Shown here one piece after another: positions 35,002 to 52,458 of a stretch of DNA of 64,000 nt (positions are counted from its first letter, which is position 1; the number at the start of each line of letters is the position of its first letter). The notes under the pieces are model-generated. The model was not told where the DNA came from, searched no databases, and saw nothing but the letters and a program-made list of their open reading frames with translations. The translations under genes and the position numbers were made by a program. The DNA comes from Cyclobacteriaceae bacterium (GTDB taxonomy: Bacteria; Bacteroidota; Bacteroidia; Cytophagales; Cyclobacteriaceae): positions 682,001 to 746,000 of the forward strand of contig JAHBTX010000003.1 in assembly GCA_019638395.1 (NCBI GenBank), given 5' to 3'.

Positions 35002-35009
35002 TAATTTTG
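35002..35009 (+). promoter_or_regulatory. candidate -7 element of the toxin-antitoxin pair
   Basis: TAATTTTG matches TAnnTTTG. A TTTG is seen at 34972-34975, but the 26-base spacing is long. Transcription would start about a dozen bases before ATG 35028, leaving almost no leader. Confidence 0.35.
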
Positions 35010-35027
35010 CCGTATAATTATGGATGT

Positions 35028-35285: not shown

Positions 35286-35704
35286 AAATATTTTTGGATG
35301 CCAACGTTCTGGTAACCGTACTAAACAAAGAGTATCCGGTGTTTCCGTATGCGGCCAAATTGTTGAGTCTTGCCGACCACCCCCGATACACATTGTTTAC
35401 ATCGCCTATTTGTTTGGCTATTGCATTTTATTTTGCTGAGAAGAAATCAGGTAGAGTGGGGGCGTTAAAGAAAATGCAAGTGCTGTGCAGTAAAATTAAA
35501 ATCGCAGCAGTTGATACGAGGGTTGTAATGCGAACCTTGGCAAACAAAACCATTACTGACTTTGAAGATGGGCTAGAGTACTACGCAGCCGAACAAACCA
35601 ATTGCTCTTGTATAATAACCGAAGATACAGTCGATTTTTCCTTCTCAAAAATGGAAGTGCTAAAGGCAGAGGAGTTTTTGGTGAAGTATGCGAGTTACAA
35701 TTAA
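35282..35704 (+). CDS. PIN-domain toxin (VapC-like)
   Basis: 140 residues. The first acidic residue is in FLDANVLV (Asp6), the second cluster is DFEDGLEYYAA (near 98-108), and the last is TEDTVDFSF (near 117-125), the expected PIN nuclease acids. It is likely an RNase inhibited by the antitoxin encoded just upstream. It is followed by a bidirectional hairpin. Confidence 0.85.
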   Translation: MKIFLDANVLVTVLNKEYPVFPYAAKLLSLADHPRYTLFTSPICLAIAFYFAEKKSGRVGALKKMQVLCSKIKIAAVDTRVVMRTLANKTITDFEDGLEYYAAEQTNCSCIITEDTVDFSFSKMEVLKAEEFLVKYASYN

Positions 35705-35761: not shown

Positions 35762-38700
35762 TTAATGGACTATCAGCACCTTCTTTCTTACTACACCGGT
35801 TTTGCCCGAGCTAATTTGCACTACATAAATTCCCTGTGCTAAGTGTTGTGTGTTTACTGTTTTGGTTTGCTCGCCTTTTTCGAAGTAGAGTTGTTGGGCT
35901 GGGCGACCAACCGGGTCTATCAGGTTAACCATTAAACGACTTTCAGCTTTGGTTGGTAACTCAATTTCAAAACTTGCATTAGCCGGGTTGGGGTAAATTT
36001 GAATATACTCGGCCAGGTCTTCGATGGCGGTAATAACATCTGGTTCCACCGGGTTATTAAAAATCTGGGCTTGTAATATTTGCTGATTGGATGCGCGAAT
36101 AGACTGTATAAATACAACAATAGCGCTGTTGTTAGTAGCAGCAGACACAAGTTTACGGTCGCTCCAGATTATCTCGGGTATTGAAACCGACTCCAGCGGA
36201 TCGATAACAAAATCGAGCGGAATTCCGGCTGCTGTGGGAAGCAATTGACGCACTACGTTTGTATAGGTTCCTGCACTTTTCTCAACAACCGCCACAAAAA
36301 GGTTGGCTCCGGTTAAGGAGAGTACGGATGAGGTAGTATTGGTTATTGTACCGTTAATTTTAACAATACTTCCATCTTTAACCGGAGTACTGATATCAAT
36401 TTTAACTGGCGAGGGTTCCAGCACGCGGCTATTGAATACAGCATCGGCCCATTGGAATGCAGTGCCGGTTTGGTTAAACAAGCCATCAATGCGCAGTGTG
36501 GGAGCAGTTGTTATTCCGTAAAATGCGGTGCGGGCATTATTGATTGCGGGTGATAATTGATTTTCGGCATCTGCACCCGGAAAGTTAGTATGAAATTGCA
36601 GTTTAATTACTTCGCTGGCTCCACCAGAAGGAAAGGTATTAAACTGTTGGTTGTGCACGGTAGCGTCAGTTGCATTGGCATTGGTGAAACTTTCAACCAG
36701 CACATTTCTATTTCGTTCGCCAATAAATACATTATCAAACGCAAATCCTTCGCGCGTACCCGTATTGGTGCTGGCAAAGGCTAATCGAAAAACTACGCCA
36801 TTCGCACCACCTACCGCATCAAGTTTATGTACCACATGTTTCCAGGATTTATACCGGCCATCTTCCTGATTACCCGACCAGCCGTAATCAAATAAACTTT
36901 GATTTCCGGGCTTACTGGCAATGCCTTGCTGCTGATACCAATTAATGCCCGAGTTAACCGTACCTACCGTAAGCCAATCGGCATCATTTAAAATATTGCC
37001 ACTCAGGTTATATTGTAATACGGCACCATCAATACCTCCGGGAGTATCGGCCCACACATCCATAGCTATTACGGGCTTAGAGGTGGCAAAGCTAAAGCAT
37101 CGACTTAGTACCCACGATTTTTCTAACGGATTGTATAACCCGGTCCGGTTTGTAACCCATGCATTGCCTAAGCCGGTAGCGGAAGAATCTCTTGAAATTA
37201 CAGTACCGGCAGGTACTCCAAACTGCCACGATGTGTTGGTGCCGCCTGCAATCCATCCATCCGAATCGGTATTGAAATTTTGATCGTACGAAGTGCCGGA
37301 GTTTATGGGCTGAAAGGTTGGAACAATAAACACCGGTTTTTGAACGGTATCTTTACAGTTGGCAAACGTTGTAACAATTAATTCAACAGCATCTCTTCCG
37401 GAAAGAGCATATAAAAATGTTGGGTTTTTACCGCTACCGGATGTTGGTGTGCTTGACAAGCTATTGTTTTTTGTAAAATTCCAGGCGTAAGAGCTGATCG
37501 ATAAGTCCAGATTGGGATTGGTTGTGGCATTAAATTGAGTAGCCGAACCCAAACAAGCATTTGTCCAGGTAAAATCTGCGTTGGGAACAGGATTAATAGT
37601 TATTGTTTGTTGCGCGTTAACCGTACAGCCATCGGAGGTGGACATCGTATAACGAATCGTTTTTGATCCAACGCCTGAATATTTATGTTCTAAATTAAAA
37701 TAGTCACCCCGTGTTCGTCCTCCGTGCAATGGTGTTGGCAGAGGCCCCGAGCCTTCGGTAATAATATCGCCATCATCAAAATTCCAGCCGGTAGAAACAA
37801 TTGTAGAGGTAGCGGCTGCAGGAGTAATGGAGGAAGTATTGGCAATGGGTATGAATGTATTATCGCAAATATCGCCAATGGCCAAGCTTGGAATTATGCT
37901 GGGGTAAATTGTAAAGTTTTTAGTTACAGTATTGGAGCAACTGGTTGAGCCATCCGTGAATGTATATTGTAATGAGTAGTTCTGACCTGGAACAAATACT
38001 GCACTGGCCGGGTCGAGTATGGCTTGACCAGCAAGCAGATCAATGTTACTTAATCCGGGTGTTGCAGAGCCGCCCCATGCTGCACCCACACCACTTGGTG
38101 AGGCACTTAATCTTACAGGTTCGGATGATTTACACAAAGCAGAAAAATCGGGAACTACATTTACCGAGGGCAATGGATTGATCGTAGTTGCTACCAGACG
38201 CCCTTCGCTTTGGCATTGATTAATAGTTTGTGTTACAAACCTGGAATAATTACCCGCAGCACTTGAAACAATGTTAAGTTCGGAAGCGGTTGCATTTAAT
38301 GGATCAGCAATTGAAGTAATTTGACCTGTTAGGTTTGCATTCGAATACCACTGTACCGTTGCAACAGGTGATGATGTTGTAACATTATATGGTGAAATCG
38401 TTTCATCCAGGCAATAGGTGGGCGATGCTGCAAGCGGTGGAATTGGTTTTTCGCGGACCACAATATCCACACCAGCAACGGGACTCTCGCAACCGTTTAT
38501 AAATCTTGAAACATAACGTTGAAAAGTCTGGGTTGAAATTACCGTGTTGGGCACAAGCAAATCGCTTGGATTTACAGTATTTCCAACAGGGGTGTAAACA
38601 GTATTATAATCAGGCGTGTTGGGCCCCAGGGTTCCATACCACTTAAATGCTGCCCCACCTCCGGTAGCTACTAAGTTTGTAAATGAATCGCCAGAGCATA

Positions 38701-41700
38701 TAGGTGTGGGGTTAGAAATACCGGGTGGCGAAGGGTTACTATTAACTGTAATAGAAACAGTTGTGGCAACACTGGCGCAACCATTTACGGTTTGTGTCAT
38801 GTACTTGGTAAATACGCCCGAAAAATTTTCATCCAATCCTAATTCAGCAAAGGTGGGCCTTGTGGTACTGGCAATACCCGTTATGATGGAGGTAGGGGGC
38901 GACCCACCATTGTTGTACCAGGTAACCGTGCCAACAGCATTAACCTGAACCCTGTTTGAATTGATTACATCAGAAACACAGAATGAAGGTATGGGTTCAA
39001 AAAGTGGAGGTGCCGGGTTGTTGAAAATTTCGGTCGTGCCCCAAGTTAGTAATTGTTCAAAAATTCCATTTGATGCAAAAATATCTACAAAGTAGTATCC
39101 TGTTCCTACCAGCGAAGGATTTAATTGGTATGTTTTGGGATTACTAAGAGGTGTTTCTGAAAAATAATTTGGATAATTCAGTGGGTCTATTGCGTCTAAA
39201 TAGCCAACTCCACTTTTGTAGAGTCGCATACGAGTATAAGTAAATCCAGGGGGGATGATAAGTGGGTTGTGGCTAAGGACACCGCTTGAACCTCCGGCAG
39301 TACAATAGAAATTATTCAGGTTATTGACAATCACGTTTGATGCGAACACATTGACTTGTATTGTGGTAGAGCTAATACAGTTATTAGGTGATGTATGAGT
39401 ATAAGTAATGGTAATGGGATTGTTGGCAGTACCGGCAATTTGTGGAGAAAAGTAGTATTTACCATTTGGGAATAAACTAACCCCTAACCCGCTAAATTCA
39501 CCCGATCCACCTGCGGGGGTTGCAGAGGCAGCAAGCTCGTATGGGTTTTCTGAGTTATTAAATTGAGTTCGTACATTCAGATCAGTGCCAGAAGGAATAA
39601 ACTCAACTGTGGGGATAGCATTTACCGTTATCGTAACGCTACTGCTGGCGGTGTTAGAAAAATTATCTGTAACGGTTAGATTATAAATACGTGTTACCGT
39701 TGGGTTAATAATAGGGTTTGGACTACTACTTGTAAATCCAGAAGGAGTGGATGTCCAGGAATAGGCAAATATTCCACCGCCACCAACTGCAGGTGGGTCG
39801 CCACCAAGTACAGTGTTTTGTCCAGCACAAACCGATCTGTCGGCTCCCGCATTAGCAGATAATGCGATTACATTTAGGGTAACAGTGCTAGTGAGATCAA
39901 GACTGCTACAGCCTGCTCTGGATACCCTTATTTTATATTGATAGCTGCCTGTAAAATTTAATGTACCGGTGCTAAAAACTAAGTTACCATTATTACCAAC
40001 CTGGGCTGCTCCAATATTTGATTCGGGTGCAGGAACGTAACTCGCAGGAGCAGCAGTTATTACCAATTGATACGAGTAGTTATTACTTTGTGTTGTACCT
40101 ACAGTAATGTTCACACTTGAATTTTGAGAAGGGTTAGTTGTTGCCGGAGTAACAGAAATTCCGGTATTAATGGCTGGATTTACTGTGAGGTTAGATGCCG
40201 AATTATTGCTTACTAAATCGCTATCGTTGTTTCGTATTGTAATTGCTCCTGTTGAAACACCAGCCGGTATCGTAAATGTTACAGAAGTACTGGAGTGGCC
40301 AGGTAATATGTTGGCAGCGGGTATTGTTACTCCGTTAACAGTAATAGTAGGAACTGAGTTACCAGATGCAGGATTTCCCGTTCCGCTAAAGCGAGTGCCA
40401 TTTACAGTAACATTATTACCAATACAGGTTGCAGTTGGTGTAAAACTTGTAATAGCCGGTCTATCTTCGGTTGTGAAGGTTATACTTTGCGCAACGGTTG
40501 CATTGTTGTTACTATCTTCAACCGGATTTACTTCAACATAATAAACCTGATTTGGTAACAGTGTGCTGGTAGGGTTTAAGGTAATAACTGTATTTGCACC
40601 GTTAATACTACCTGCAAAGTCCACAGATGCACCGCCATTATTTGTTATTTTAAGCTCAATAAGCCCGCCTTCAATATCAGTGCCGGTAATTGGTGTATTG
40701 TCAAGTTTGCGAATGGGCTCGTCAAAGCTTATTACGATATTTCCCACAGCCGAAAAGTTAACAGTGGCATTAGCCGGTTGGAAGCTAATGTTGGGTGGCG
40801 TTGCATCGGCAAACGAATAATTAGTGCCGGTAAGCGTAATGGTACCCGGTGTAATGGCAGGGTTTATAAACGTAATACCCGCTTGTGTAAATGAAGGTTC
40901 GGTGGCCAGGGTGGATGCATTTACACCGGCTTCAACATTTACAACTATAAAGTAATTAGTTGTTCCGGCAGTTAAGTTTTCATTGACGGCATTAAACTGT
41001 AATTGTGTTCCGATTGTGCCGGTGTTTATGCTGGCATCGCCTCCAAATACAGCATCGGTGGATTTGAAAATGCGCGGATTAAGAAATTTGCCGGTTGCTG
41101 TGGTAGTAAGCGAAACAGTTAGCGCATTAAATGTGGTGGGGCCATTGGTAGTAATGGAGAATCCTAAAATAGCCTGATCGGTTGAACCACTATTTAAAGG
41201 ACTTGCGGCTATATTGCTACCACCACCGGCAATTTGATTAAGTGTTACAACCAAAGTAGTCGTTGCTGATGCTGCCGGTGCAGCACCATTATTCAGGTAG
41301 TTATAGGTACTGGCATTGCTTCCGTTGTAATTATAGGGTATCAGTGCGTAGTGATATGTTGCCCCCCCCGGTAAGCCGCTATCAGCATAGGTGGTGGCAG
41401 TGCCTGTAGTAGTATGAATTAAGGTAGCACCATTTAATGGATCAGGTGGAGCTCCTCCATCGGTTAGGCCCGTCAAGTTTACGGCACTTCCGGCTAATCT
41501 GTAAATTAAGTACCCATCGGCATTTGTGAGTGTATTAGCAGCATCAAACGCCAGGTCGATGGTAGTAGTACCATTGAGTGTAGCTGTAAATGTGGTTGAA
41601 TGTCCGCCAGGTTCTAACGAGAAAGTAAAATCCGTAGCGCTGGGTCTTCCACCTTCTTTATAGTCGGCTTCTCCGGGAGTTCCACCGGTGGTGCGATAGG

Positions 41701-42073
41701 AATAGATAGCAAACTCATACTCAGTTTCAGCATCTAAGCCGGTAATATTAAAAATGTTAGGATCTGAAAAGGCCACAATGGCTGCAAAGTTTCCATCACT
41801 CCAGTCTGCATCGGCTGGTATTAAAGGAATATCGCCTGAGCCTACTGCGGCAAAAGTTCCGCCTGTCGTTTTTCTCCCTAAGATCAGGTAAAATTCCGGA
41901 AGGGTAGGTCCCGTTGCATCTGTCCACGATAAAGTAATTTCAGAACTACTCGATGCTGTTACCGAAAACCCCGTAACATGGTTGGTTGGTTCTTGTATTT
42001 GTGCGGCAGCGTTAAACCAGCAAGTTGCGATTAATAAAATTAGTATGCCCTGTAAAGCTTTTTTCATAGACAT
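35762..42073 (-). CDS. giant T9SS-exported surface protein
   Basis: 2103 residues from ATG 42073 (TGATG overlap with the previous stop; ATG 42067 also possible). Signal peptide (to about 25, ending NAAAQ), FN3 modules (30-270), an SbsA-like Ig domain (about 430-535), an IPT/TIG-like domain (about 540-630), many Ig-like and PKD segments, and a jelly-roll-like region around 1600-1780. An Omp28-like segment beginning VLVESFTNANATDATVHNQQ lies near 1790-1900. The end is a type A T9SS sorting domain (IQIYPNPANASFEIELP ... VRKKVLIVH). It is the last gene of the six-gene cluster and ends at the hairpin at 35705-35749. Confidence 0.9.
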   Translation of the reverse strand: MSMKKALQGILILLIATCWFNAAAQIQEPTNHVTGFSVTASSSSEITLSWTDATGPTLPEFYLILGRKTTGGTFAAVGSGDIPLIPADADWSDGNFAAIVAFSDPNIFNITGLDAETEYEFAIYSYRTTGGTPGEADYKEGGRPSATDFTFSLEPGGHSTTFTATLNGTTTIDLAFDAANTLTNADGYLIYRLAGSAVNLTGLTDGGAPPDPLNGATLIHTTTGTATTYADSGLPGGATYHYALIPYNYNGSNASTYNYLNNGAAPAASATTTLVVTLNQIAGGGSNIAASPLNSGSTDQAILGFSITTNGPTTFNALTVSLTTTATGKFLNPRIFKSTDAVFGGDASINTGTIGTQLQFNAVNENLTAGTTNYFIVVNVEAGVNASTLATEPSFTQAGITFINPAITPGTITLTGTNYSFADATPPNISFQPANATVNFSAVGNIVISFDEPIRKLDNTPITGTDIEGGLIELKITNNGGASVDFAGSINGANTVITLNPTSTLLPNQVYYVEVNPVEDSNNNATVAQSITFTTEDRPAITSFTPTATCIGNNVTVNGTRFSGTGNPASGNSVPTITVNGVTIPAANILPGHSSTSVTFTIPAGVSTGAITIRNNDSDLVSNNSASNLTVNPAINTGISVTPATTNPSQNSSVNITVGTTQSNNYSYQLVITAAPASYVPAPESNIGAAQVGNNGNLVFSTGTLNFTGSYQYKIRVSRAGCSSLDLTSTVTLNVIALSANAGADRSVCAGQNTVLGGDPPAVGGGGIFAYSWTSTPSGFTSSSPNPIINPTVTRIYNLTVTDNFSNTASSSVTITVNAIPTVEFIPSGTDLNVRTQFNNSENPYELAASATPAGGSGEFSGLGVSLFPNGKYYFSPQIAGTANNPITITYTHTSPNNCISSTTIQVNVFASNVIVNNLNNFYCTAGGSSGVLSHNPLIIPPGFTYTRMRLYKSGVGYLDAIDPLNYPNYFSETPLSNPKTYQLNPSLVGTGYYFVDIFASNGIFEQLLTWGTTEIFNNPAPPLFEPIPSFCVSDVINSNRVQVNAVGTVTWYNNGGSPPTSIITGIASTTRPTFAELGLDENFSGVFTKYMTQTVNGCASVATTVSITVNSNPSPPGISNPTPICSGDSFTNLVATGGGAAFKWYGTLGPNTPDYNTVYTPVGNTVNPSDLLVPNTVISTQTFQRYVSRFINGCESPVAGVDIVVREKPIPPLAASPTYCLDETISPYNVTTSSPVATVQWYSNANLTGQITSIADPLNATASELNIVSSAAGNYSRFVTQTINQCQSEGRLVATTINPLPSVNVVPDFSALCKSSEPVRLSASPSGVGAAWGGSATPGLSNIDLLAGQAILDPASAVFVPGQNYSLQYTFTDGSTSCSNTVTKNFTIYPSIIPSLAIGDICDNTFIPIANTSSITPAAATSTIVSTGWNFDDGDIITEGSGPLPTPLHGGRTRGDYFNLEHKYSGVGSKTIRYTMSTSDGCTVNAQQTITINPVPNADFTWTNACLGSATQFNATTNPNLDLSISSYAWNFTKNNSLSSTPTSGSGKNPTFLYALSGRDAVELIVTTFANCKDTVQKPVFIVPTFQPINSGTSYDQNFNTDSDGWIAGGTNTSWQFGVPAGTVISRDSSATGLGNAWVTNRTGLYNPLEKSWVLSRCFSFATSKPVIAMDVWADTPGGIDGAVLQYNLSGNILNDADWLTVGTVNSGINWYQQQGIASKPGNQSLFDYGWSGNQEDGRYKSWKHVVHKLDAVGGANGVVFRLAFASTNTGTREGFAFDNVFIGERNRNVLVESFTNANATDATVHNQQFNTFPSGGASEVIKLQFHTNFPGADAENQLSPAINNARTAFYGITTAPTLRIDGLFNQTGTAFQWADAVFNSRVLEPSPVKIDISTPVKDGSIVKINGTITNTTSSVLSLTGANLFVAVVEKSAGTYTNVVRQLLPTAAGIPLDFVIDPLESVSIPEIIWSDRKLVSAATNNSAIVVFIQSIRASNQQILQAQIFNNPVEPDVITAIEDLAEYIQIYPNPANASFEIELPTKAESRLMVNLIDPVGRPAQQLYFEKGEQTKTVNTQHLAQGIYVVQISSGKTGVVRKKVLIVH

Positions 42074-43353
42074 CAATCCTTTAACTCTCCGTTTCGATCT
42101 GTTTTAATTAAAAATATAGAAGGAACATTACCCAATGTATTTGTACCACAAATCAATAAGCCTCCATCCTCGGTTTCGCGTATGGTGCTTACTGTTTCGC
42201 TGCCGGTACCCCCCAATGTTTTCATCCATTGTAAACTTCCTTGCGTTCCAACTTTGATTAACAATATATCGTTGAGGCCACTTCCTATTTGTGAGTTGGA
42301 AGTAAAATGACCAGCTAAAACAAAACTGTCATCGGATGTAGCGGTTATTGCGGTTCCATAATCTTCAGTTTCTGATGTAGTGGCCTCGCTGTTTCCAGCA
42401 AGTGCATCAAAGTAAGTCATGGTTGCCGGCTTAATGTTGCCCAGAAAATCCACAAACACAAAAAACATATTAGAACCACTGTTGTTGGGGTTTGATCTTG
42501 TACCCACTACACCAAATCCGGTGGTGAGTGCAGGTTGAATATCATTTGGTCGCAATGATTGGGCTGTGGGTGTATTTTCTCCGAATGAGCTGTAATTTGT
42601 AAATACCGATCCGCTTTGTACATACGGAATGGATAGGTAAGAAAAATCAAAATTTTGTTGTTCTAAGGCAATGGAACTGGCCCAGATGAATGTATCGCCC
42701 AACGCATGTACTGATTTTGAATTACGATAACTGCGCTGTAACAAGTTGTATTGTACTAAACTTTCCTGAGTTGTAAACGTGGCATTAAATTGCTGCAGGT
42801 AGGGCTTAACGGGTGTGGATAATGTTTCCTGATATGTTCCCAACACAACTACTTTACCTGCGGGAGTAATTGTAACAGCAGTAGCACCGTAATCAGTTTT
42901 TATTGCCTGCGTGGTTTCATCACGTAAGTAAATGGTTTTAATACTATCCAAATCGTTGCTGATGTGCAGCATGCGGGCCGAAATAACATCAATGTTATCG
43001 GTTTGAGCGGCACCCGGGTCGGTTTTAATACGTTGGCCTACAATAATAAAACCCTGGTTACCGGCCAACGCTTTTATGGCACTACCCGAACCACCCTGGT
43101 AATACCGGATAGGAGTGGTGCGATTACCTTGCTTATCGGTTTTAAATACCACAGTAATAACAGAGTCGCGTGTAAGCGTCATGTTACCTAATACAATGTA
43201 TCCGTCTGGGGTAACCTCGGCAGCGGCTGCATCAATGCCCCGTATGCCGCTGTATAATTTTATAAACGTGTTGCGCTTAGCCGGCTCAGCATTTTCCATA
43301 TTGGTGCACGCGCCAAGCAGCATAGTACATGCGAAAAATAATGAATACTTCAT
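42073..43353 (-). CDS. lipoprotein with beta-propeller-like repeats
   Basis: 426 residues. Lipobox LLGAC (Cys 16). The mature part has recurring GG-(LF)-(LI)-(IV)-x-G-x ... (IL)-(LF)-(LI)-K-T/V-D/G-x-x-G motifs, for example GGLLICGTN...FLIKTDRNGEL and QGFIIVGQR, as in delta-60/beta-propeller proteins. It is probably surface- or periplasm-facing. The start overlaps the preceding barrel gene by 4 bases and the stop overlaps the giant gene start. Binding partner unknown. Confidence 0.82.
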   Translation of the reverse strand: MKYSLFFACTMLLGACTNMENAEPAKRNTFIKLYSGIRGIDAAAAEVTPDGYIVLGNMTLTRDSVITVVFKTDKQGNRTTPIRYYQGGSGSAIKALAGNQGFIIVGQRIKTDPGAAQTDNIDVISARMLHISNDLDSIKTIYLRDETTQAIKTDYGATAVTITPAGKVVVLGTYQETLSTPVKPYLQQFNATFTTQESLVQYNLLQRSYRNSKSVHALGDTFIWASSIALEQQNFDFSYLSIPYVQSGSVFTNYSSFGENTPTAQSLRPNDIQPALTTGFGVVGTRSNPNNSGSNMFFVFVDFLGNIKPATMTYFDALAGNSEATTSETEDYGTAITATSDDSFVLAGHFTSNSQIGSGLNDILLIKVGTQGSLQWMKTLGGTGSETVSTIRETEDGGLLICGTNTLGNVPSIFLIKTDRNGELKD

Positions 43354-44429
43354 TTTCTCTGAATAATCTTTTTAGGGTTATGCTTATCAAAAATATAAGA
43401 ACCGGCAATAGATATGGAAGACTGTTTAAATACCGGATCGGCATAACCATAATCTAATGCCAGCGATTGGTTAGCAAAGGCTGTTGCCGGAGTGCTAACA
43501 GCGGTGAGACCATGAGCATAACGAATTTCAAAAACGATAAGTCCAGGGCCAACGGGTAACTTAATACCAGTTGCAATTAATACACTTAGATTTATCGGTC
43601 TTCGCTTCAGATCAAGGCTTTGCTCGGGCACACCCGGTTCATCTGTTCGGGTGCGCTCGGCCGATAACCTGCTTCTGTAAACATAGTCGGTTGAAGCCCC
43701 CATAGCAACATAGGGATTAAACTTTTTATTCATGAATTTGTATTCAAGTGTAATGGGCAACGACAAGGCTGTTTGTGACTCTACACCTTCAAACTTATTG
43801 ATTAGTTCTTTGTCGGGTTCGGCAGGGTCGGTTCCACGATTTTCATTTTGCACGATGGTAAATCTTCGTTGTTGATTTAACAGCTCTCCGTGCAGGGTCC
43901 ATTTTTTTGTTTGTTTGAAAAGCGTAAGCGGAACATCCAATGCTGCACCAAATTGAAAACCTACCGCCCGGTTAAATTTACTGTCATCGGCCAGTTCAAT
44001 TACGGTTACCAGTTCGTTTACATTGGGTTGTGTAAAGTTTACACCTAACCTGATTCCTACCCGATAAACCGGCTCTTCCCGAAAGGAGTTGTAGAGGGCT
44101 ACAAATTCGGCCGGATCAATTTCAGGATTGGGCCTAAAGTAGGGATCGGCCTTCTTCAAACTCAACATAGCCGCATCGGCCTGTTGGGGTTCTTCCAGGT
44201 AGATATAACTCAAGGCAAGAATTTTAAGTGCTTCTACCCGCAGTTGATTCTCTTGTTGGGAGAACCCACCTTTTTCAGCAGGTTCTAAACAGCCCTTCAG
44301 TTGCGATTCGATTTCATGTAAACGCCCTTGTTCATACGTGGCCCGTGCCAATCGTAATGTTTGAGCACATTGTGTCCAGCCCTGCATGAATAATCCGGTG
44401 AATAATGCAATCAGTAAAATCTTTTTCAT
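43350..44429 (-). CDS. outer-membrane beta-barrel protein with helical N-terminus
   Basis: 359 residues. Signal peptide (1-19) and a mostly helical, TPR-like segment (20-125) containing EALKILALSYIYLEEPQQADAAM and DPAEFVALYNSF. A barrel follows from about 130 with alternating strands (YRVGIRLGVNF, FGAALDVPLTLF, LPITLEYKFMN, NPYVAMGASTDYVY, LIVFEIRYAHGL). It resembles PorT-type outer-membrane proteins. Six bases separate it from the NTPase gene upstream. Confidence 0.82.
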   Translation of the reverse strand: MKKILLIALFTGLFMQGWTQCAQTLRLARATYEQGRLHEIESQLKGCLEPAEKGGFSQQENQLRVEALKILALSYIYLEEPQQADAAMLSLKKADPYFRPNPEIDPAEFVALYNSFREEPVYRVGIRLGVNFTQPNVNELVTVIELADDSKFNRAVGFQFGAALDVPLTLFKQTKKWTLHGELLNQQRRFTIVQNENRGTDPAEPDKELINKFEGVESQTALSLPITLEYKFMNKKFNPYVAMGASTDYVYRSRLSAERTRTDEPGVPEQSLDLKRRPINLSVLIATGIKLPVGPGLIVFEIRYAHGLTAVSTPATAFANQSLALDYGYADPVFKQSSISIAGSYIFDKHNPKKIIQRK

Positions 44430-44435
44430 AGATGG

Positions 44436-47400
44436 CTAATTCGCTCCGGGTTTAAAATTTTTACAAGTCAATTCATAGTCCAAATCTTTACCAACATAGG
44501 TGGCCCACTCATCGGGTGTCATGTTGCGTTCAATAAATTCGCTACATAATATGTTGGACATGGTAGATACTTTGGTAGGGTAGGAGCGAATGCTCTCTTC
44601 GTTTTGTATAGCGCCTAACCGCACGCGCTGGCTGCTGCTTTGCAAGCCAACCATTAGTTGTTCATCGTTGGGTGAAAACGTAAGCGACCAAATCCAGTCG
44701 TTATGATCAAACAAGCGAATGGGCGGTTCGGTTAACCGGTTAACATTCCAGATTCTCACTGTTCGGTCCTTACTGGCAGTGGCAAAGAAACTGCCGGCAT
44801 GGTTGTAAACAATATCTTCTACCGGACCATCGTGGCCTGGCAGGTTTCGAACCAATATGCCGTTACGTACTATGCGAAGTAATCCCGATTCGTTACCAAC
44901 AATTACCTGATTTTCGGTGGGGTGCCAGGTAACAGCTGTAAGACTACGGCCTAAATTTTTCACTTCGGTTACAGCATAGTTATTTGTTACATCCCATATA
45001 TATAAGGTTCCATTATCGCCTGCACCGGCTAATTTTTTTCCATCGCGGCTTAGGTTAATAGCATTTATCTTTACAGGAGCTTTAATCACTTCTTTGGCGG
45101 TAGTAAAGTCAGCTTGCTTAATACTTAGTCCGCCATTATCGCGGGCAAACAATCCCTTTCCATCAGGCGTAAATTCTACATCTTCAATGTTATAGGTAAA
45201 GCCCACAATTTTCCTGGGTGCGGCATTCATATTCGTTAAGTCATATAACTCAACGTAGTTGTTCTGGGCATCGGGGGTGTATAAACCGGCCGCTACTAAC
45301 TTAGTTTCATCCGGACTAATAGACATGGAATAAACCTGGTAGTTGGGTCGTTTAATTTTGTCAACCAGGGTTTCTCCTTGCCATGCGCCATTGCGATATG
45401 TCCATCGGATAATCTTACCATCGCTGCCCCCGGAATAAATGTGTTGGTCTTTACCGTGTGTAACCAGCGAGCGTGCAGCTCCAAAATCATGTCCTTTTAA
45501 ACTGGTGGTTAACGGGTGCGGATTGGGTTTGCCTTCTTTGTCGGTTTTATTCTTTAAGGCAAAATAAAGTCCGTTATAAATATCGGTATCAAACTCATAA
45601 CCATCATTCTTGGCATTAAACAGGTAGGCTTGTTGTGCCAGTAAGGCTTCTAACTGCAGGTCGCTGCTAAGCGTAAGCGATTGCAATGCCATGGCTTTTG
45701 CCTGTGCTACATATCTTCTTCGTGTAGCATCGGCACGGGCTATATTGGCTTTTTCTTCATTTTCTTTTGCTAATTTTTCGTTTGCCAAAGCTGTTCTCTC
45801 ATTGGCTTCTGCTTTACCTTTTTGCAGTAAAGCTTCAGCTTCCTGCTCTTTTGCTCTTCGCTCATTCTCCTGTGCCAGTTCTCGCTGTACAGCTTCTGCC
45901 TTTTGCGCATCAATGGCTACCAATCTTGCAGAATCAGCAGCATCTCGTTCTTTTTGCGCAACTATGGCCAGTCTTTTTGCTTCATCTGCACTCTCAATAG
46001 CCTTTGCTTCATTATCTTTTGCTAACTGTTCCTGGCGTTTGGCTTCGGCCTGTTGCATGTAGGCATAAACAAAGGCTACCAGTGCTATGGCAGCCAGCGA
46101 TCCAAATACAATAGCCGTAATGCGGGCGCGTTGCAGCTTGCGTTTGGCCTCCAGTTCTTTAATGCGTTGCTCGGTATCAAATTCTTTCTTGGAGTACTCC
46201 AGAAAGATCATGGTACGCTCAAAAGCCGGGTGGTAGCGCTGGCCCCACACTAAGGTAGGTTTGTGCTTGGCTTGCCAGTTAAGGGCCAACTGCAAATCGG
46301 GTGGGCGCCATAAACCGGCTTTGCCTATCTGGTATTGCGAGGCGGCCTCGGCTAAACGCAAATACATTTGCACAGCTTCGCTCTCATCGTCCACCCAGTT
46401 TTTTAATCGTACCCAAATGCGCATCAAACTTTCATGCGAAATGTCGATCATCGACTTGGAGCCTAACTCAATACCATATGCTGGTGTTAACAAGGAGCGA
46501 CCAGGCTCGCGGAATTTTTCAATCACCGCAGCTACATCGGCTTCCGAAACATCGGCAATGGAAGCAATTTCATTTAGCTTTGTTGGCCTTCGAATACCAA
46601 AGTTTTCACCACGCTTTTCGGTAATAGCTTTGAATAGGATTTCGCAAATGCGTTGTTGCTCTTCGTCCAATTCATCATACGCTTCGTTGGCGTGCATCGA
46701 TAGCGCTTGCGACATAGTGCCGATGGCCTCATAGTGTTTCAGGTCAACCGGCTCATCTTCGTAGTCGCGGTATTTGGCCCAGTAACTCCAGGTGCGCATT
46801 AAAGCGTGTTGTAAAATGGGCAACTGATCGGGGTTATCGCCAAGGTCGTTTAAAAGTTGTTGTGTTAAGCGCGGTGTAATTTTAGCATTGCCTACGGCAA
46901 CAGGGCCTTCAATAGCCCTGCGTTTCTGATCGCGCGTCATTTGCGGAATCAGGTAGTGGCTATCGTTAATCTTGCGGGTTAACTCCGGAAACTGCGCACA
47001 TTCACCAATAAAATCCGAACGCATGGTAATGGCTACGTAGATGGGTGCATCTTCGTAGTTTACGGCTTCCATTAACAGGTTAATAAAGGCAAGCGATTCG
47101 TTTACGGAGTTCGGGTCGGTGCTGTCTTTAAAGCGAAAGAGTTCTTCAAACTGATCGACAAGAATCAGGTAATTGATGTCTTCTTTTCTGCGCGATTGTT
47201 GAATAGCTTCTACCAACCCCAGCGAACTGCTTCGCAATAAAGTAGAAACAATAGTGCGCTTTATTTTTTTATCTTCTACATCGGCCGCGTTATAATCTTT
47301 TACTGTTTTTAAAAGTGACTCGGCCAGGTTATCGATAGGGCCGGCACCGGGGCGGGTTACCACCACTTCCCAATTAGGGCTGGCATCGGTTAAAAAGCCT

Positions 47401-47627
47401 CCGTATAAAATGGGAAGTACACCGCAGTATATAAAAGATGACTTACCACTTCCAGACGGACCAATAACGCCTACAAACCTGCTCTTGGAAAGTTTGAGCA
47501 GCACTTCATCGCTCTGGCCTTCGCGGCCAAAGAACAAATGGCTCTCTTCAATTTTGAACGGACGCAGCCCGGGGAAGGGGTTAATCGTTCCTACCAGCGT
47601 GCCCTGTTCATCTATCATCTGGCTCAT
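44436..47627 (-). CDS. membrane-anchored nSTAND1 NTPase with WD40 propeller
   Basis: 1063 residues. N-terminal STAND NTPase (nSTAND1 type): NPFPGLRPF at 16-24, Walker A GPSGSGKSS (56-64), Walker B LVDQFEEL (156-163) and a conserved Arg in AITMRSDF. A winged-helix/helical section runs to about 490. One membrane helix lies near 502-524, then an Ala/Glu/Lys-rich coiled coil (525-650). Seven WD40-like blades (about 705-1015, several ending IWDV/IWNV) make one complete propeller. Basic residues before the helix predict a cytoplasmic NTPase and a periplasmic propeller. It is three bases downstream of the TIR-like gene. Confidence 0.9.
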   Translation of the reverse strand: MSQMIDEQGTLVGTINPFPGLRPFKIEESHLFFGREGQSDEVLLKLSKSRFVGVIGPSGSGKSSFIYCGVLPILYGGFLTDASPNWEVVVTRPGAGPIDNLAESLLKTVKDYNAADVEDKKIKRTIVSTLLRSSSLGLVEAIQQSRRKEDINYLILVDQFEELFRFKDSTDPNSVNESLAFINLLMEAVNYEDAPIYVAITMRSDFIGECAQFPELTRKINDSHYLIPQMTRDQKRRAIEGPVAVGNAKITPRLTQQLLNDLGDNPDQLPILQHALMRTWSYWAKYRDYEDEPVDLKHYEAIGTMSQALSMHANEAYDELDEEQQRICEILFKAITEKRGENFGIRRPTKLNEIASIADVSEADVAAVIEKFREPGRSLLTPAYGIELGSKSMIDISHESLMRIWVRLKNWVDDESEAVQMYLRLAEAASQYQIGKAGLWRPPDLQLALNWQAKHKPTLVWGQRYHPAFERTMIFLEYSKKEFDTEQRIKELEAKRKLQRARITAIVFGSLAAIALVAFVYAYMQQAEAKRQEQLAKDNEAKAIESADEAKRLAIVAQKERDAADSARLVAIDAQKAEAVQRELAQENERRAKEQEAEALLQKGKAEANERTALANEKLAKENEEKANIARADATRRRYVAQAKAMALQSLTLSSDLQLEALLAQQAYLFNAKNDGYEFDTDIYNGLYFALKNKTDKEGKPNPHPLTTSLKGHDFGAARSLVTHGKDQHIYSGGSDGKIIRWTYRNGAWQGETLVDKIKRPNYQVYSMSISPDETKLVAAGLYTPDAQNNYVELYDLTNMNAAPRKIVGFTYNIEDVEFTPDGKGLFARDNGGLSIKQADFTTAKEVIKAPVKINAINLSRDGKKLAGAGDNGTLYIWDVTNNYAVTEVKNLGRSLTAVTWHPTENQVIVGNESGLLRIVRNGILVRNLPGHDGPVEDIVYNHAGSFFATASKDRTVRIWNVNRLTEPPIRLFDHNDWIWSLTFSPNDEQLMVGLQSSSQRVRLGAIQNEESIRSYPTKVSTMSNILCSEFIERNMTPDEWATYVGKDLDYELTCKNFKPGAN

Positions 47628-47630
47628 AGA

Positions 47631-49067
47631 TTATGAGTTAATGTCTTGTAAAAAGTTTTTCAGGTTTTCAAGCGAGCGGTTGGTGTCGCCTGCTATCAAC
47701 GTAAGGTTTTGATTTTTGAATCCATCTAATGCAGCATTATCGGCAGCCACAATGGCTTTACCTTGAATGGGTTTTTTTCTTCCAAAGCCGGGTGCCTTCA
47801 GCAAGTCCAGCACCTTCATGCGCACCCACTGGTCGTTTACTTTTCCTTTAAAGATGATGGCACCATCGAAGTTGCGCAGGTTTTCGATGTGTTGTTTACG
47901 AACTTCCAATAGCTCGCCTTCAAATGCTGGCGTAAGCACCTTGAAGCCCGATTTTTCAATTACTTCGCGGTATGGACGCACCTCGGTATCGTCAATTTTA
48001 TCGTGTACTAGGTAAATGGATTTACCACCGGCCTCATCCAGGTTATTGCGCTCCTGCGATTCCAGTAACTCTTCGCGCATAATATTTTTAAAATCTTCGA
48101 GCGGGTTTTGTAAAATCTCGGCACCTTCCTGGGCTTCGGTATCGCGCTTTAATGTGTCGATAAATGCACGTTGTTTGTCGCTGGCATTTTTCAGGTTTTG
48201 CGAAATCCAGATGAGGCGCGAGAATTCCTGCTGTTGTTGTTTTTTTTGAAGGGCTATTTCGGCAGCAAGTTGGTTTTGAATATCAACGATTGATCGATCG
48301 GCACCTTCGGGTATTTCGCCATAGGCGCTGCCAACCAGGTGTACAGAGAGCGAACATTCCTGTAAATCTTTCTGAACGGTTCGCATTACCTCGCTTGCAT
48401 GTGTAGGTAATGTGTTTTTAGGAAGCACAATATACCCATGGCGTTGCAACTCGCGCTTAATAATATTGCGCTGTACCGATAGATCATGCCCCGTCTCTGC
48501 TAAGTAAATAGCCTTGCGCTTGAAAATATTTTTTACAGTTGATTTTACATCGCCTTCATTCAAAATCATCAAGGCATCATGTATATCATACGCCAGGTCC
48601 ACCAACTTCATCCAATATTGTTTTTCAGCTTCCTGACTAAAAAAATCTGAATACTCTTTTTGAAGCCCGGTTTCTGAATCGAGCTGGTACATCTCATAGC
48701 CAATCAGGTCGCGCAGGCGGGGTGGTTGTTCGGGTAATGAAAGCGGGGCCTTCATAACTTTAAACACACGGTTAATTTTAGACTGCGATGAGTTTTTATA
48801 AAATGTTTCGAGGTTATCGAGGCATCGGCCTGAAAGTGCGAATGCTTTCGTAAGTATGGGCACCAGAATGGCTGCATTGTTCAATGCCGGGGCTGTAGCC
48901 GAATCAAACTCTGATTTAAGAATGATGTTTGGTTTGGTTCCTTGCACTTGGGTGAGCATGAGTTCCAGAAATTTTTTGAATTGCGTAACCCACCCTGTTT
49001 CTGATTTTTGAACAGTCTCGTTATCTTGTTCGGCAAATGTTATCAGTACATCAATTTCAAAAGCCAT
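47631..49067 (-). CDS. protein with three TIR-like segments
   Basis: 478 residues, no signal peptide. Segment 1 (1-150) starts FEIDVLITFAEQDN and has AAILVPILTKAFALSGRCLDNLE, the TIR beta-D/alpha-D pattern; Glu87 may be the NADase glutamate, but it lies at C+5 rather than the usual C+3. Segment 2 (about 188-280), KAIYLAETGHDLSVQRNIIKRELQ ... SVHLVGSAYGEIPEG, is DUF4062/TIR-like. Segment 3 (about 345-475) reads KSIYLVHDKIDDTEVRPYREVIEKSGFKV ... FDGAIIFKGKVNDQW. It is likely a cytoplasmic partner or effector of the STAND NTPase encoded three bases downstream. Confidence 0.75.
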   Translation of the reverse strand: MAFEIDVLITFAEQDNETVQKSETGWVTQFKKFLELMLTQVQGTKPNIILKSEFDSATAPALNNAAILVPILTKAFALSGRCLDNLETFYKNSSQSKINRVFKVMKAPLSLPEQPPRLRDLIGYEMYQLDSETGLQKEYSDFFSQEAEKQYWMKLVDLAYDIHDALMILNEGDVKSTVKNIFKRKAIYLAETGHDLSVQRNIIKRELQRHGYIVLPKNTLPTHASEVMRTVQKDLQECSLSVHLVGSAYGEIPEGADRSIVDIQNQLAAEIALQKKQQQQEFSRLIWISQNLKNASDKQRAFIDTLKRDTEAQEGAEILQNPLEDFKNIMREELLESQERNNLDEAGGKSIYLVHDKIDDTEVRPYREVIEKSGFKVLTPAFEGELLEVRKQHIENLRNFDGAIIFKGKVNDQWVRMKVLDLLKAPGFGRKKPIQGKAIVAADNAALDGFKNQNLTLIAGDTNRSLENLKNFLQDINS

Positions 49068-49080
49068 CGTTTAAAAAATT

Positions 49081-52000
49081 TTAGTTTACAGGTTGTTTTT
49101 CGGGTTGTTCGGTAATATTGTGTATAAGCCCCTGCGCCAGTTCGTGGTGGTTGGCTAACACGAAGTAAAAGTCGATCAAACTTATTTTGAATATCACACT
49201 TCGTTCGCTTGCCAGTACTTCAGTTATGGCAGGTGTTGGCCCTTCCTGAAAAAGATCGCCATAAACGCTGCCGGGGTTTAACTGCATTACAAGCTGGCCA
49301 TGGTTTGTTAATTGAGCTTTGCCATGTGCCATTATTAAAATGGGCATTTCTTCTGTTTGCGGAATGGTTAGTTTTTCGTTTGCTTTTAGGGTGATGGGCT
49401 GAATTTTATCAGCCAAATCGCTCAATACTTTCCCTTGTATGTGATAAAATGCGGGGATCGATTTGATGAGCATAATCATTTCGATGTAGAGGAAAAAACC
49501 ATCGTCCAAACCATCCAGCAGTTGGTTGCTTTCGATGGATGAATCCAGAAATTTTTTGTCTTTATAAGGCAAGCGTTCGGAAATGGATTGGTAAGCAGCC
49601 CTGTCTTTATTGTAAATTACCCAGGCGGTAGTTTCCTGTAGCAGTTTGTCGTTGTTAAACATTTGGCTGATTAACCCCCGGCTTACACGAAAGTTGGGTA
49701 TGTAAGCACACGCATGTACCGCGCACACTTTCGTCCACCGGTTGTTGTAATTAAAATCGCGATTTAAGATGTAGTTGATTACTTGAACGGGGTTGTAACT
49801 TTCGCGTGGGAAAAAAGTTTGCAGGTTCTCTAATTTTTTGGTAGTAGAAGAATCATCTAACAAGGGGATTAGTTTTGGCTTTAAATCCTGATCTACAAAT
49901 AAATCCAATAGTTCAAGCGCATATTGAACACTATCGGGCGTGCCCAGTTCAATATTCTCCTTCACTAATTGTATGGATTCGGGATCGTATAGTAACGAGA
50001 GCAGTAAACTAAGATGATCGTAATTATCGCGCACTTCTTCGCGCAAGGCTTCGCGCAGATATTTATAAATGGGTTGCTCGGGTAATTCATGTAAGGCAGC
50101 CAGGTTCCATAAAGTCTTACTCATTTCTGTATCGAGTAAATCTTTTACAGCCAATACTTCGCGGCCGGTAGCCCGGTAATTAATGAAGCGCAGCGAATAG
50201 AGAATTTGTTTTACTACTCGTTTATCGGGGTAGTCGATTTTTTTCCATAGCAGTTGTAAACTTTCTTTACCAGGAATGTGGCCCATAATCTGAATCACCT
50301 TTAGCATTACCTGATCGTTCTGCCCTGATTTATGAAAAGCTGTTTCCAAAACGGGTAATGCAGCCGGGCCTGCTTCTTTTAAGGCGGCTGCGGCCTGGTG
50401 GGCATAACGCGGAGATGCTAATAGTTCTATTAACACATTCCAGGTTTCGGGGCGTTTTACTTTGCGGGCGGTAAGCAACGCTTCGGTACGTACTTTCGGG
50501 TCGGCATCGCGCATCAACTCCAGCAAAATGAAAATGGTTTTCTGATTGGTAAGTTTGCGCATTAACTTGGCAGCCAATAAACGGTCGGTTTGTTTTACCG
50601 ACTTACTTAACTTCATTAGCTTTTCTACCGGTATTGAAAGCAGGTCGCTATCCTCGGCCATGCCGGCAGCCTGAGTTGCCAGACCTTTTATTTCATTGTC
50701 GGCAGCGAGTATTCCCAGTTCGTCAATTTTTTTGCGGGCAAACTGCGATACTTTTCGGGAAGGACTATCGGCCAATTGCAGAAGCGATGTTTCGAACAGG
50801 GCCGGCTCTAACTTCTCCATTAACTTCAGTCCATAAATTATTTTCTCCTCAGCAGTGCTGCGCACTTCTTTTTCCAATACGCTATCCAAGGTGTATTCTT
50901 TAACCAGGTTTTTCTTAACTGCCGATTTATTTTTGATCAACGAACTTTGGAGCGTATCGCGATAGCCTTTGTACATCCGGTTACTTACCCAATACCAGCA
51001 GAGCAAAACCGGAATGGTAAATAGTGTAATGGAGAATACGGTAAAAATATCGAACGAATTAATCAATACGATTACGCCCCCGGCTATGGCGCTGGCCAAA
51101 GCAGTAACGGTACCTTCAATTTTTGTCTGGGTATCAATGCTGGTTGCACGGTCAAGCGGTACGTAAAAGAACTTAAAGGTGGGTTCATCGAGGGCTTCTC
51201 GCAAAGAGTTAATAAAAAGTTTACTCATAGCCACCGCTATGAAGAAAAAGGCGATTGAGCTTTTTTCACCGGTAGTAAGATCGTACCCGAAAACAGAGCC
51301 TAACGCAATGGCAGCGCCTGTAAATATTATTAATACAATTGGATTGATGAGCAAGGAAACGCGCAGGCCGTAATCCTGATTGATGCGATCGGTAACAAAT
51401 GTGGTGAACAAGAAACTGAATATAACTACAGTTGCCTCGAAGAAACTGAGGAAGGTGGCCACTTGCTGATCATCCATTTTGCCGGCCTCATCGGTATATT
51501 GAATGGTAGTAGCATTAAAAAAGGCATAGTCCACAAATCGCAAGGCTACCAACGAAACCACGATGAAAAGCGAAAGAGTAACTATATACTTGTTACCCAG
51601 AAACTGACCAACTGTAAGTTTTTTAATTTCAGATTCGCTTTTAATAACTGTTTTGCCACCGCGCAGGTACTTATTCGATAAAACAAGAAATAACAACAAG
51701 AAGCCTACAATACTAACCAGGCCTATCGAATAAAGCGATTCGGGTGTAAAACCTGCACCTAGTAAAACAGGAATAGAGAAGAAGGCAAAGATGGCTGCTA
51801 TATCGGTACCCACATCTACACTGCCTACCAGACGCTTGGAATCGCGCACGTTAAACATACGGTTAAACGATCCCCAAAATACAAGCTGCGTAACAAAGGT
51901 AAAGGGCAGTATTAACGTAAAACCGAAATAGAAAAGCAGGTTGGTATCCTGCACATATGTTTCGCCAAACTCGATAAAGGCAGTAAAAGCAATAATCAGA

Positions 52001-52269
52001 AACAGGTTAAAAACAGCGAGGGCCGTGAATGGAATCCGGCCCTGTAGAAAATTGTAAAGTAAGGTTATTAATATACCTAACCCCCCCGATATGGCCAGGG
52101 CAATAGGAAGGTCGGTGCGTTCATCAAAATGTGCAAGAAATAAGGTTTGAGAAGCTACCGCAACCGAGGCTAGAAAAAGCCCCATCACGAAACTCATAAT
52201 AAGCAGCAACGCTACCGGGCCGGTTTCATCGGGTTCAACATCAAGCGCTTTCCATAACCGTTGGAGCAT
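49081..52269 (-). CDS. ATP/ADP-translocase-like carrier fused to HEAT repeats and a cNMP-binding-like domain
   Basis: 1062 residues from ATG 52269 (GTG 52299 possible). About twelve helices (residues 20-430) resembling Npt/Tlc nucleotide transporters or MFS. Then helical HEAT-like repeats (about 540-890; DADPKVRTEALLTARKV is a clear unit). The C-terminal cyclic-nucleotide-binding fold (about 950-1045) has ITLKANEKLTIPQ, LIMAHGKAQLTN and LNPGSVYGDL. It is the first gene of the cluster, 13 bases before the TIR-like gene. The transported compound is unknown; transport could also be lost and the membrane part used for sensing. Confidence 0.82.
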   Translation of the reverse strand: MLQRLWKALDVEPDETGPVALLLIMSFVMGLFLASVAVASQTLFLAHFDERTDLPIALAISGGLGILITLLYNFLQGRIPFTALAVFNLFLIIAFTAFIEFGETYVQDTNLLFYFGFTLILPFTFVTQLVFWGSFNRMFNVRDSKRLVGSVDVGTDIAAIFAFFSIPVLLGAGFTPESLYSIGLVSIVGFLLLFLVLSNKYLRGGKTVIKSESEIKKLTVGQFLGNKYIVTLSLFIVVSLVALRFVDYAFFNATTIQYTDEAGKMDDQQVATFLSFFEATVVIFSFLFTTFVTDRINQDYGLRVSLLINPIVLIIFTGAAIALGSVFGYDLTTGEKSSIAFFFIAVAMSKLFINSLREALDEPTFKFFYVPLDRATSIDTQTKIEGTVTALASAIAGGVIVLINSFDIFTVFSITLFTIPVLLCWYWVSNRMYKGYRDTLQSSLIKNKSAVKKNLVKEYTLDSVLEKEVRSTAEEKIIYGLKLMEKLEPALFETSLLQLADSPSRKVSQFARKKIDELGILAADNEIKGLATQAAGMAEDSDLLSIPVEKLMKLSKSVKQTDRLLAAKLMRKLTNQKTIFILLELMRDADPKVRTEALLTARKVKRPETWNVLIELLASPRYAHQAAAALKEAGPAALPVLETAFHKSGQNDQVMLKVIQIMGHIPGKESLQLLWKKIDYPDKRVVKQILYSLRFINYRATGREVLAVKDLLDTEMSKTLWNLAALHELPEQPIYKYLREALREEVRDNYDHLSLLLSLLYDPESIQLVKENIELGTPDSVQYALELLDLFVDQDLKPKLIPLLDDSSTTKKLENLQTFFPRESYNPVQVINYILNRDFNYNNRWTKVCAVHACAYIPNFRVSRGLISQMFNNDKLLQETTAWVIYNKDRAAYQSISERLPYKDKKFLDSSIESNQLLDGLDDGFFLYIEMIMLIKSIPAFYHIQGKVLSDLADKIQPITLKANEKLTIPQTEEMPILIMAHGKAQLTNHGQLVMQLNPGSVYGDLFQEGPTPAITEVLASERSVIFKISLIDFYFVLANHHELAQGLIHNITEQPEKQPVN

Positions 52270-52458
52270 AGGTTGCAGTTTAACCTTTAAATTTTGCACA
52301 ATTCATCGAAAAATCCAATTCAATTAACAGTTGATTTGTTATTCGTTACCAACTGATTTATAAGCTATTGATGTAAAATTACCAGCGTTATCACCTACCT
52401 TTTACCGATAATATTACCAACAGCATGAATTACTACACCTACTTGTGTGGTAAACAGG

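Follow-up and report, generated by a model that had tools for sequence, protein, structure and literature searches.

A cluster of six minus-strand genes (P1 to P6) from a Cyclobacteriaceae bacterium has its extracytoplasmic part replaced as a block, with one border at the membrane helix of P3 and the other at the secretion signal of P6. The cluster lies in a stretch of 64,000 nt (the window; assembly GCA_019638395.1, contig JAHBTX010000003.1, positions 682,001-746,000), and all positions given here are window-based. In order, the genes encode a protein with carrier, HEAT-repeat and cyclic nucleotide monophosphate (cNMP)-binding folds (P1), a protein of three TIR-like folds (P2), an nSTAND1 NTPase with a transmembrane helix and WD40 repeats (P3), a beta-barrel (P4), a lipoprotein (P5), and a giant protein of the type IX secretion system (T9SS; P6). 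Because the outside half is repeatedly exchanged while the inside half is kept, a diversifying recognition system is suggested. We consider it rather probable that the cluster forms one envelope-spanning recognition receptor of NLR-like logic with an exchangeable exterior.

The exchangeable cassette occupies approximately 36045..46040 on the minus strand and comprises P3 from just past the transmembrane helix, P4, P5, and P6 minus its sorting domain. Identities were calculated over 58 loci, namely the window and 57 others with complete P1-P5; 62 loci pass the filter on P4/P5 length and spacing, and the same 58 were used for the trees. Mean pairwise identity is 61% for P1, 67% for P2, and 86% for P3 residues 1-500. 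It is 43% for P3 residues 501-700, 51% for residues 701-1063, 41% for P4, and 30% for P5. DNA alignments to the window run from beyond QueA, in the upstream flank, into P3 and reach codons ~529 (locus L033), 583 (L108), 619 (L034), and 576 (L035), past which mere short patches of 66-68% DNA identity are left. The loci L179-L183 were taken as the downstream stretches of the L108, L034, L035, L037, and L058 genomes. DNA similarity resumes at window 36037-36044, in the last ~92 codons of P6 that encode the T9SS sorting domain, at 81% in L179, 76% in L180, and 83% in L181, and the P6 end of L182 matches at 68%. The flanking genes beyond P6 keep their order, and TerC is 94-95% identical at the protein level in L179-L181. 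The fall in identity after the P3 helix is thus not merely fast evolution, since the DNA match ends there and then resumes at the P6 end. One border falls at the inner-membrane crossing and the other at the secretion signal, so the exchanged part is what lies outside the cytosol.

Single pairs of loci show the same break. The DNA of L058 and L059 matches at 92.2% identity across 10,561 bp, as far as P3 codon ~535, after which blastn finds nothing (the L059 contig ends early in P6), and their P4 and P5 are 34% and 25% identical. L080 and L094 are 80% identical in P2 and 93% in P3 residues 1-500, against 33% in P4 and 26% in P5. The reverse is seen in L074 and L091, whose P2 is just 66-67% identical, yet the P3 WD40 part reaches 87-88%, P4 71-79%, and P5 73-74%. 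Among 40 pairs with P2 at 85% or more, 13 have P4 below 50%; of the 1450 pairs whose P2 identity is under 75%, 12 have P4 at 60% or more. The core and cassette trees conflict. In approximately unbiased tests, the cassette data reject both the core clade (p 4e-56) and the grouping of L058 with L059 (p 3e-7), and the core data reject the cassette clade (p 3e-7); these p values are optimistic, because the groups were chosen after the trees had been inspected. A silent cassette reservoir was sought in the window's own genome: P5 matches itself alone there, and for P3 a single other full-length relative turns up, at 42%. With so few relatives of P5 and P3 in the genome, on-site shuffling of the phase-variation kind is unsupported.

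The WD40 half of P3 co-varies with P4 and P5. Partial correlations controlled for P1+P2 were calculated with 999 permutations for the 46 of the 58 loci that include QueA. The WD40 half correlates with P4 at 0.56 and with P5 at 0.50, and P4 with P5 at 0.83, each at p 0.001, the smallest value that 999 permutations can give. The NTPase half of P3 shows no correlation with P4 (0.04, p 0.29) or P5 (0.04, p 0.31). The relevant match therefore passes through the middle of P3 and not along a gene border. A first-pass annotation of the window had offered, as its alternative, that the last three genes are a separate surface module that is only co-transcribed, which fits badly with P4 and P5 co-varying and swapping with the WD40 half. 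The block exchange bordered by the P3 membrane helix and the P6 secretion signal had escaped that annotation.

P3 (44436-47627, minus strand) matches Pfam nSTAND1 (E 6.5e-97) and WD40. The cytoplasmic half at 46041..47627 runs from nSTAND1 (residues 17-433) through the transmembrane helix. Every one of the 100 aligned rows keeps the NTPase motifs intact, with G56, S58, G59, G61, K62, and S63 in Walker A and D158, E161, and E162 in the DQFEE motif. The 100 rows hold 98 distinct sequences and include four copies from loci without P2 (L119, L235-L237) and L241, from outside the order. An nSTAND1 domain with Walker A and B, together with C-terminal superstructure-forming repeats, here WD40, places P3 in the STAND/NLR class. 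A single positive-inside transmembrane helix is predicted at 46056..46112 (about residues 506-524), and the membrane anchor that the first-pass annotation gave to the NTPase is thus present. The strongest hydrophobic stretch lies at this site in 99 of 100 rows, and an excess of K/R on its N-terminal side is found in 100 of 100.

Between the helix and the WD40 repeats, P3 has an alanine-heptad stretch at 45708..46055 (residues 525-640, ~116 aa), with alanine every seven residues. In 98 of 100 rows, or 96 of 98 distinct sequences, the stretch is as long as in the window or is longer or shorter by whole heptads; 68 rows have 116 aa, 23 have 123, three have 130, two have 137, and two have 102. The rows off this step are L035, one residue short, and L241, which lacks the rod. 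The sequence of this region averages 43% identity despite the quantised length. Alanine fills 15-16 of 18 register positions in six of eight sequences, 18 in one, and 12 in one. At the rise of a helix, 116 residues extend over ~17 nm, which is sufficient to cross a periplasm. The stretch would form a single straight helix, and the alanine heptads could possibly serve as a ruler for periplasm width. The WD40 repeats and C-terminal tail (44436..45530) contain two conserved cysteines, C1028 and C1055, both present in 97 of 100 rows. A topology with the NTPase in the cytosol, the WD40 part in the periplasm, and a heptad-quantised rod between them is strongly suggested by these sequence features. 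In contrast to the cytosolic sensor of Avs-like or NLR-like STAND/TIR immune systems, the WD40 sensor is predicted outside the cytosol, because the positive-inside helix lies between it and the NTPase, it has the two cysteines, and the exchange border falls at the exit of the helix.

P2 (47631-49067, minus strand) comprises a TIR domain (residues 1-170), a DUF4062/DNPH1-like domain (184-336), and a deoxyribosyltransferase/TIR-like domain (346-478). Pfam gives DUF4062 at E 1.2e-6 and TIR_2 at E 0.0018, the latter under its cut-off, and the predicted structure has three alpha/beta domains with a TIR fold. Foldseek with the entire P2 ranks long, poor alignments first, and the domain calls rely on per-range rows instead. 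In the third domain, W414 is present in 97 of 97 rows and K418 in 96 of 97. Column 85, where the motif alignment would put the TIR catalytic glutamate, is Glu in none of the 67 close rows, one of which has a gap there, and in seven of the 30 others (L124, L210, L211, L215-L218). The NAD chemistry expected of P2 in the first-pass annotation is thereby weakened for the window's clade, and distant families may keep it. With the glutamate missing, P2 of this clade would more probably act as a scaffold or bind a nucleotide than cleave NAD. Because seven distant P2 keep Glu at this column, an enzymatic output may be present in some distant families and lost in the window's clade. In L102 (LNFR01000072.1) and L128, P2 is broken by stops or frameshifts with its neighbours present, and decay and assembly error are both possible.

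P1 (49081-52299, minus strand) has a GTG start and an internal ATG at 52269, which is the start used in the first-pass annotation. The domains at 49081..52269 are an NTT-type ADP/ATP-carrier membrane domain, HEAT repeats, and a C-terminal cNMP-binding fold. The predicted structure has a pLDDT of 76. The carrier fold is recognised by profile (E 9e-21 to the plastid ADP,ATP carrier 9j3n), which indicates homology to the NTT fold; the carrier stretch FWGFANEITK reads FWGSFNRMFN in P1, and R147 is kept in 91 of 92 rows. The cNMP-binding fold is found by profile at E 7e-22 to cGMP-dependent kinases, and the single sequence reaches only E 0.036 against the Pfam cNMP model, under the cut-off. Column 1024, presumably the place of the phosphate-binding arginine of the cNMP motif, has Arg in 3 of 92 rows, and no column from 1016 to 1032 has it in more than 3 of 92. 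A separate Arg nine residues beyond this place occurs in 58 of 92 rows. The read-out of a cyclic nucleotide by P1, as previously proposed, is weakened by this rarity of the phosphate-binding arginine.

P4 (43350-44429, minus strand) matches the outer-membrane beta-barrel family OMP_b-brl_2, as do 15 of 16 aligned members, and also carries a separate N-terminal domain. A tetratricopeptide repeat (TPR) was considered for P4; Pfam TPR matches 0 of 16 members, with just a sub-threshold TssQ match. P5 (42073-43353, minus strand) is a lipoprotein with a lipobox cysteine that is invariant across 18 aligned sequences, and a beta-propeller by profile (CylK, E 3e-18). P6 (35762-42076, minus strand) has a TTG start and an alternative ATG at 42073 that overlaps the P5 stop (35762..42073). 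Pfam finds the T9SS sorting domain and Big_5 in P6, with PKD_4 barely above and fn3 barely below the cut-off. Its C terminus matches Por_Secre_tail (E 1.6e-11), a type A sorting domain. Four of four scanned distant P6 end in a sorting domain preceded by Reelin-like or Omp28-like stretches, and their N-terminal repeats vary (Ig_7, Big_13, PKD, or SprB). By its domain make-up, P6 might resemble an adhesin. The ratio of nonsynonymous to synonymous substitution rates (dN/dS) is highest for P6 in seven of the eight same-type pairs with values, the exception being L074/L091; it is 0.32 in window/L031 (0.01-0.09 for the other genes) and 0.07-0.34 in the other seven pairs, with dS often saturated and P6 of the relatives incomplete.

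The gene set is widespread within the order yet patchy. A genome scan with P2 gave 103 relatives, of which 80 were kept as loci, all from Bacteroidota taxa and chiefly from Cyclobacteriaceae, Flammeovirgaceae, Fulvivirgaceae, and relatives. Matches to P1 and P2, together with a P3 no shorter than 1030 aa, are found in 66 of the 80; among these, P4 and P5 are in place in 62, and a further open reading frame of more than 250 aa comes next in 60. Many of the 80 stretches stop before the locus ends. Of the genomes sampled in the window's order, 43 of 192, from 22 of 92 genera, have a P2 match. In the phylum, 15 of 392 genomes have any P2 match; the four full-length ones all belong to the family of the window, and beyond these G310 covers most of P2 in two pieces and the rest are partial. 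The distant set consists of 28 chosen loci from 11 other families of the order; three of 31 extra loci (L238-L240) were left out as members of the window's own family, two of them repeating L074 and L042. P3 follows P2 in 26 of the 28. Of these 26 loci, 24 have P4 further downstream, 21 have P5 on the same strand, and 14 have a giant open reading frame (1000 aa or more); five stretches end too early. The surface genes thus usually travel with the carrier, TIR, and STAND genes across the 80 named and 28 distant loci as one conserved unit, as the first-pass annotation had supposed, and the unrelated surface genes in homologous neighbourhoods that would have spoken against this unit did not turn up.

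A second copy without P2, in the order P1, P3, P4, P5, and a giant gene, is present elsewhere in the window's genome and in three others of the genomes examined (L235, L236, L237). The own-genome copy (L119/L120, contig C1 ~68734-91674) encodes P1' (32-33%), P3' (40-42%), P4', P5', and a T9SS protein of 4657 aa, and is followed by a hybrid histidine kinase on the other strand. Between P1 and P2, two families have a gene for a HAMP-SpoIIE (PP2C-type) phosphatase (L124:3436-5388, L128:15867-17885, L222:1596-3629), an insertion that suggests phospho-signalling. Outside the order, at L241:3625-11012, P2-like and P3-like genes adjoin genes for alpha/beta-hydrolase-TPR-S and TPR-S/MAP3K-TRAF-binding proteins; this is a conflict-type neighbourhood, and its P3 lacks the heptad rod.

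In the receptor that we propose, the adhesin-like P6 would form a recognition head outside the cell together with P5 and P4. The WD40 propeller of P3 would lie in the periplasm on the ~17-nm alanine-heptad rod and touch P4/P5. Through the single transmembrane helix the rod would be joined to the nSTAND1 ATPase, which would be the switch in the cytosol. Binding or loss of a ligand outside would change the state of P3 and lead to assembly of the ATPase, which would then engage P2 and the membrane protein P1 to give a response. We infer these physical contacts, the direction of the signal, the output, and the role in recognition, whether of kin, phage, or surfaces. Selection for new specificity would act chiefly on the exterior, which would sometimes be swapped as one block, by recombination with the conserved inner half as one border and the conserved secretion signal as the other. 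The interpretation in the first-pass annotation is partly supported: the unit, the anchor, and the relay from surface to cytosol stand, the relay being consistent with the predicted topology, and the NAD chemistry and cyclic-nucleotide read-out are weakened.

Several observations weigh against the proposed receptor. The core and cassette trees have many clades in common, which indicates that the cassette is mostly inherited vertically and only sometimes replaced. The P6 end of L183 has no DNA-level match to the window. QueA, in the upstream flank, correlates with P4 (0.25, p 0.001) and P5 (0.21, p 0.004), and the contrast between inside and outside is therefore not perfectly clean. The catalytic features of the TIR and cNMP domains are largely missing, and the copy without P2 indicates that P2 is dispensable in some cases. 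A giant open reading frame is absent from 6 of the 26 distant loci on stretches long enough to hold it (L125, L127, L210, L212, L226, L228), P5 is also absent from L127, L226, and L228, and L123 has P5-P6 on the opposite strand. The patchy spread is apparent from fifteen genomes of the same family (genera g17-g22), none of which has a P2 match. Positive selection was also considered; dN/dS is below 1 in every computable comparison, with dS often saturated, so there is no direct sign of it.

The use to which such a receptor might be put can be read in several ways. A tentative reading, which we regard as possible though rather unlikely, is an allorecognition locus like an envelope-spanning NLR, in which P6 would be the ligand, P5, P4, and the P3 WD40 part the receptor, and the switch would lie in the same operon, so that a mismatch on contact trips the STAND protein. 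The polymorphic recognition half would move as a unit, and the cell would display and read its own type. The surface cassette is indeed polymorphic and co-inherited, and recognition itself would have to be supposed. To be held with about the same doubt is an alarm for phage or envelope damage, in which the exterior would be phage receptors or decoys, the rod would relay adsorption or loss to the STAND switch, P2 and P1 would bring about growth arrest, and exchange of the exterior would be escape from phage. Conflict systems often contain STAND and TIR folds, the surface parts change fast, and the P2-like and P3-like genes of L241 stand among conflict-type genes, though its P3 has no rod. Against an alarm, the TIR glutamate is missing in the window's clade, the genes lie between constant flanks in the close relatives examined and not in a variable defence island, and PADLOC matches for P1-P5 are weak. 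As to known defence systems, the best PADLOC match for P1-P5 is to a P-loop stretch of P3, 24 residues long, at E 4e-4, and as to phage-derived proteins, PHROGs gives no match for P2, P4, P5, or P6 at E 0.001. Sensing of a substrate or surface seems a little less likely still. P6, P5, and P4 would then bind a polymer or solid surface, the STAND relay would set adhesion, gliding, or enzyme expression, and the exterior would be swapped as niches change. It agrees with the T9SS sorting domain, with Ig_7 and PKD in distant P6, and with the SprB repeats of gliding adhesins in L128. The fall of P4 and P5 to 27% and 15% identity is, in our judgement, more than a niche sensor should need, and near-identical cores with unrelated exteriors, as in L058/L059, are also difficult for it.

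It appears improbable that P4, P5, and P6 are just a fast-evolving surface module of the ordinary kind, merely co-transcribed with an unrelated STAND/TIR system. Surface proteins commonly evolve fast, dN/dS below 1 agrees with such a module, and certain loci lack P5 or P6. However, the exchange border lies inside P3, it is the WD40 half and not the NTPase half that co-varies with P4/P5 once P1+P2 are controlled for, and gene order is maintained across families. An assembly artefact, a mosaic of unrelated contigs joined in metagenome bins, would fit with most relatives being metagenome-assembled genomes and is very improbable indeed, since the break is seen in several assemblies at almost identical codons, conserved flanks stand on both sides on one contig, and the same break separates L080 and L094, whose records are not labelled as metagenome-assembled.

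The cluster shares features with several known systems. The kin-recognition loci TraA of Myxococcus and Ids of Proteus share with the window cluster surface determinants that are very polymorphic and a chassis that is conserved, and kin discrimination would be a putative role here. To our knowledge, these loci have no STAND switch. The fungal HNWD proteins (het-d/het-e) combine STAND with hypervariable WD40 in self/non-self recognition. The combination of STAND and WD40 is thus common to both, but HNWD are cytosolic eukaryotic proteins without the envelope parts of the window cluster. The TolA/TonB couplers have a single transmembrane helix and a long periplasmic rod to outer-membrane partners. 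P3 has the helix and the rod, and differs by its cytosolic STAND ATPase and WD40 tip. The NCBIfam TolA model matches P3 residues 477-649 weakly (E 4.7e-5), far under the cut-off, and, unlike in TolA/TonB systems, no motor gene of the TolQR/ExbBD type is found in the cluster.

Among the literature matches listed, the closest published frame is that of the STAND/NLR conflict systems (Kaur et al. 2020, PMC7159879; 2021, PMC8195603). As described in the available text of these papers, they have a STAND switch, C-terminal sensor repeats, TIR-fold partners, and variable regions. The window cluster likewise has a STAND NTPase switch, superstructure-forming sensor repeats, TIR-fold partners, and variable regions. 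Unlike in those systems, as far as that text describes them, its WD40 sensor is predicted to be periplasmic and coupled to a barrel, a lipoprotein, and a T9SS protein; the term outer membrane has no occurrence in the available text of PMC7159879 and PMC8195603. Antigen sensors of multicellular bacteria diversified by diversity-generating retroelements are described as putative conflict systems (PMC10907252). They resemble the window cluster in being diversified, there by retroelements and here by block replacement of a multi-gene cassette. Neither the gene set nor its mode of change appears among the open-access literature matches listed, a body that holds few subscription papers and no preprints. 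Within that scope, the cluster is new as a kind of system and built from known folds and domains.

If the proposed receptor is correct, STAND/NLR-type switches are not confined to surveillance of the cytosol, and one of them is wired through the periplasm to the surface. Its exterior would be replaced as a block, with natural borders where P3 crosses the inner membrane and where P6 has its secretion signal. Such a cluster would provide a genetic system for the study of surface recognition coupled to an immune-type ATPase in bacteria, and a way to ask whether Cytophagales possess self/non-self recognition. As a domain-swap experiment made by nature, the block exchange reveals the parts that must match.

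The layout of the cluster agrees with the earlier description. The six open reading frames lie on the minus strand at 35762..52299, with spacings of 13, 3, and 6 bases from P1 on and overlaps at the subsequent junctions. An A+T-rich hairpin 3' of P6 (35690..35761, minus strand) is a possible transcript end; its folding energy is -21.9 kcal/mol against -12.9 +/- 2.7 for shuffles (z -3.3), and it is absent from the list of the terminator scan, which looks for G+C stems. Promoter-like sites number 29 against 37.6 expected from shuffles, in a scan restricted to certain promoter types, and terminator-like sites 15 against 19.9, so neither is in excess. The conservation of gene order across many genomes indicates that the cluster is more than chance. 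A DUF6364 and PIN-domain pair, which is toxin-antitoxin-like, lies at 34917-35704 on the plus strand between the P6 end and TerC. It has no match in L179, L180, L182, or L183 and is also present in L181, at 83% and 65%.

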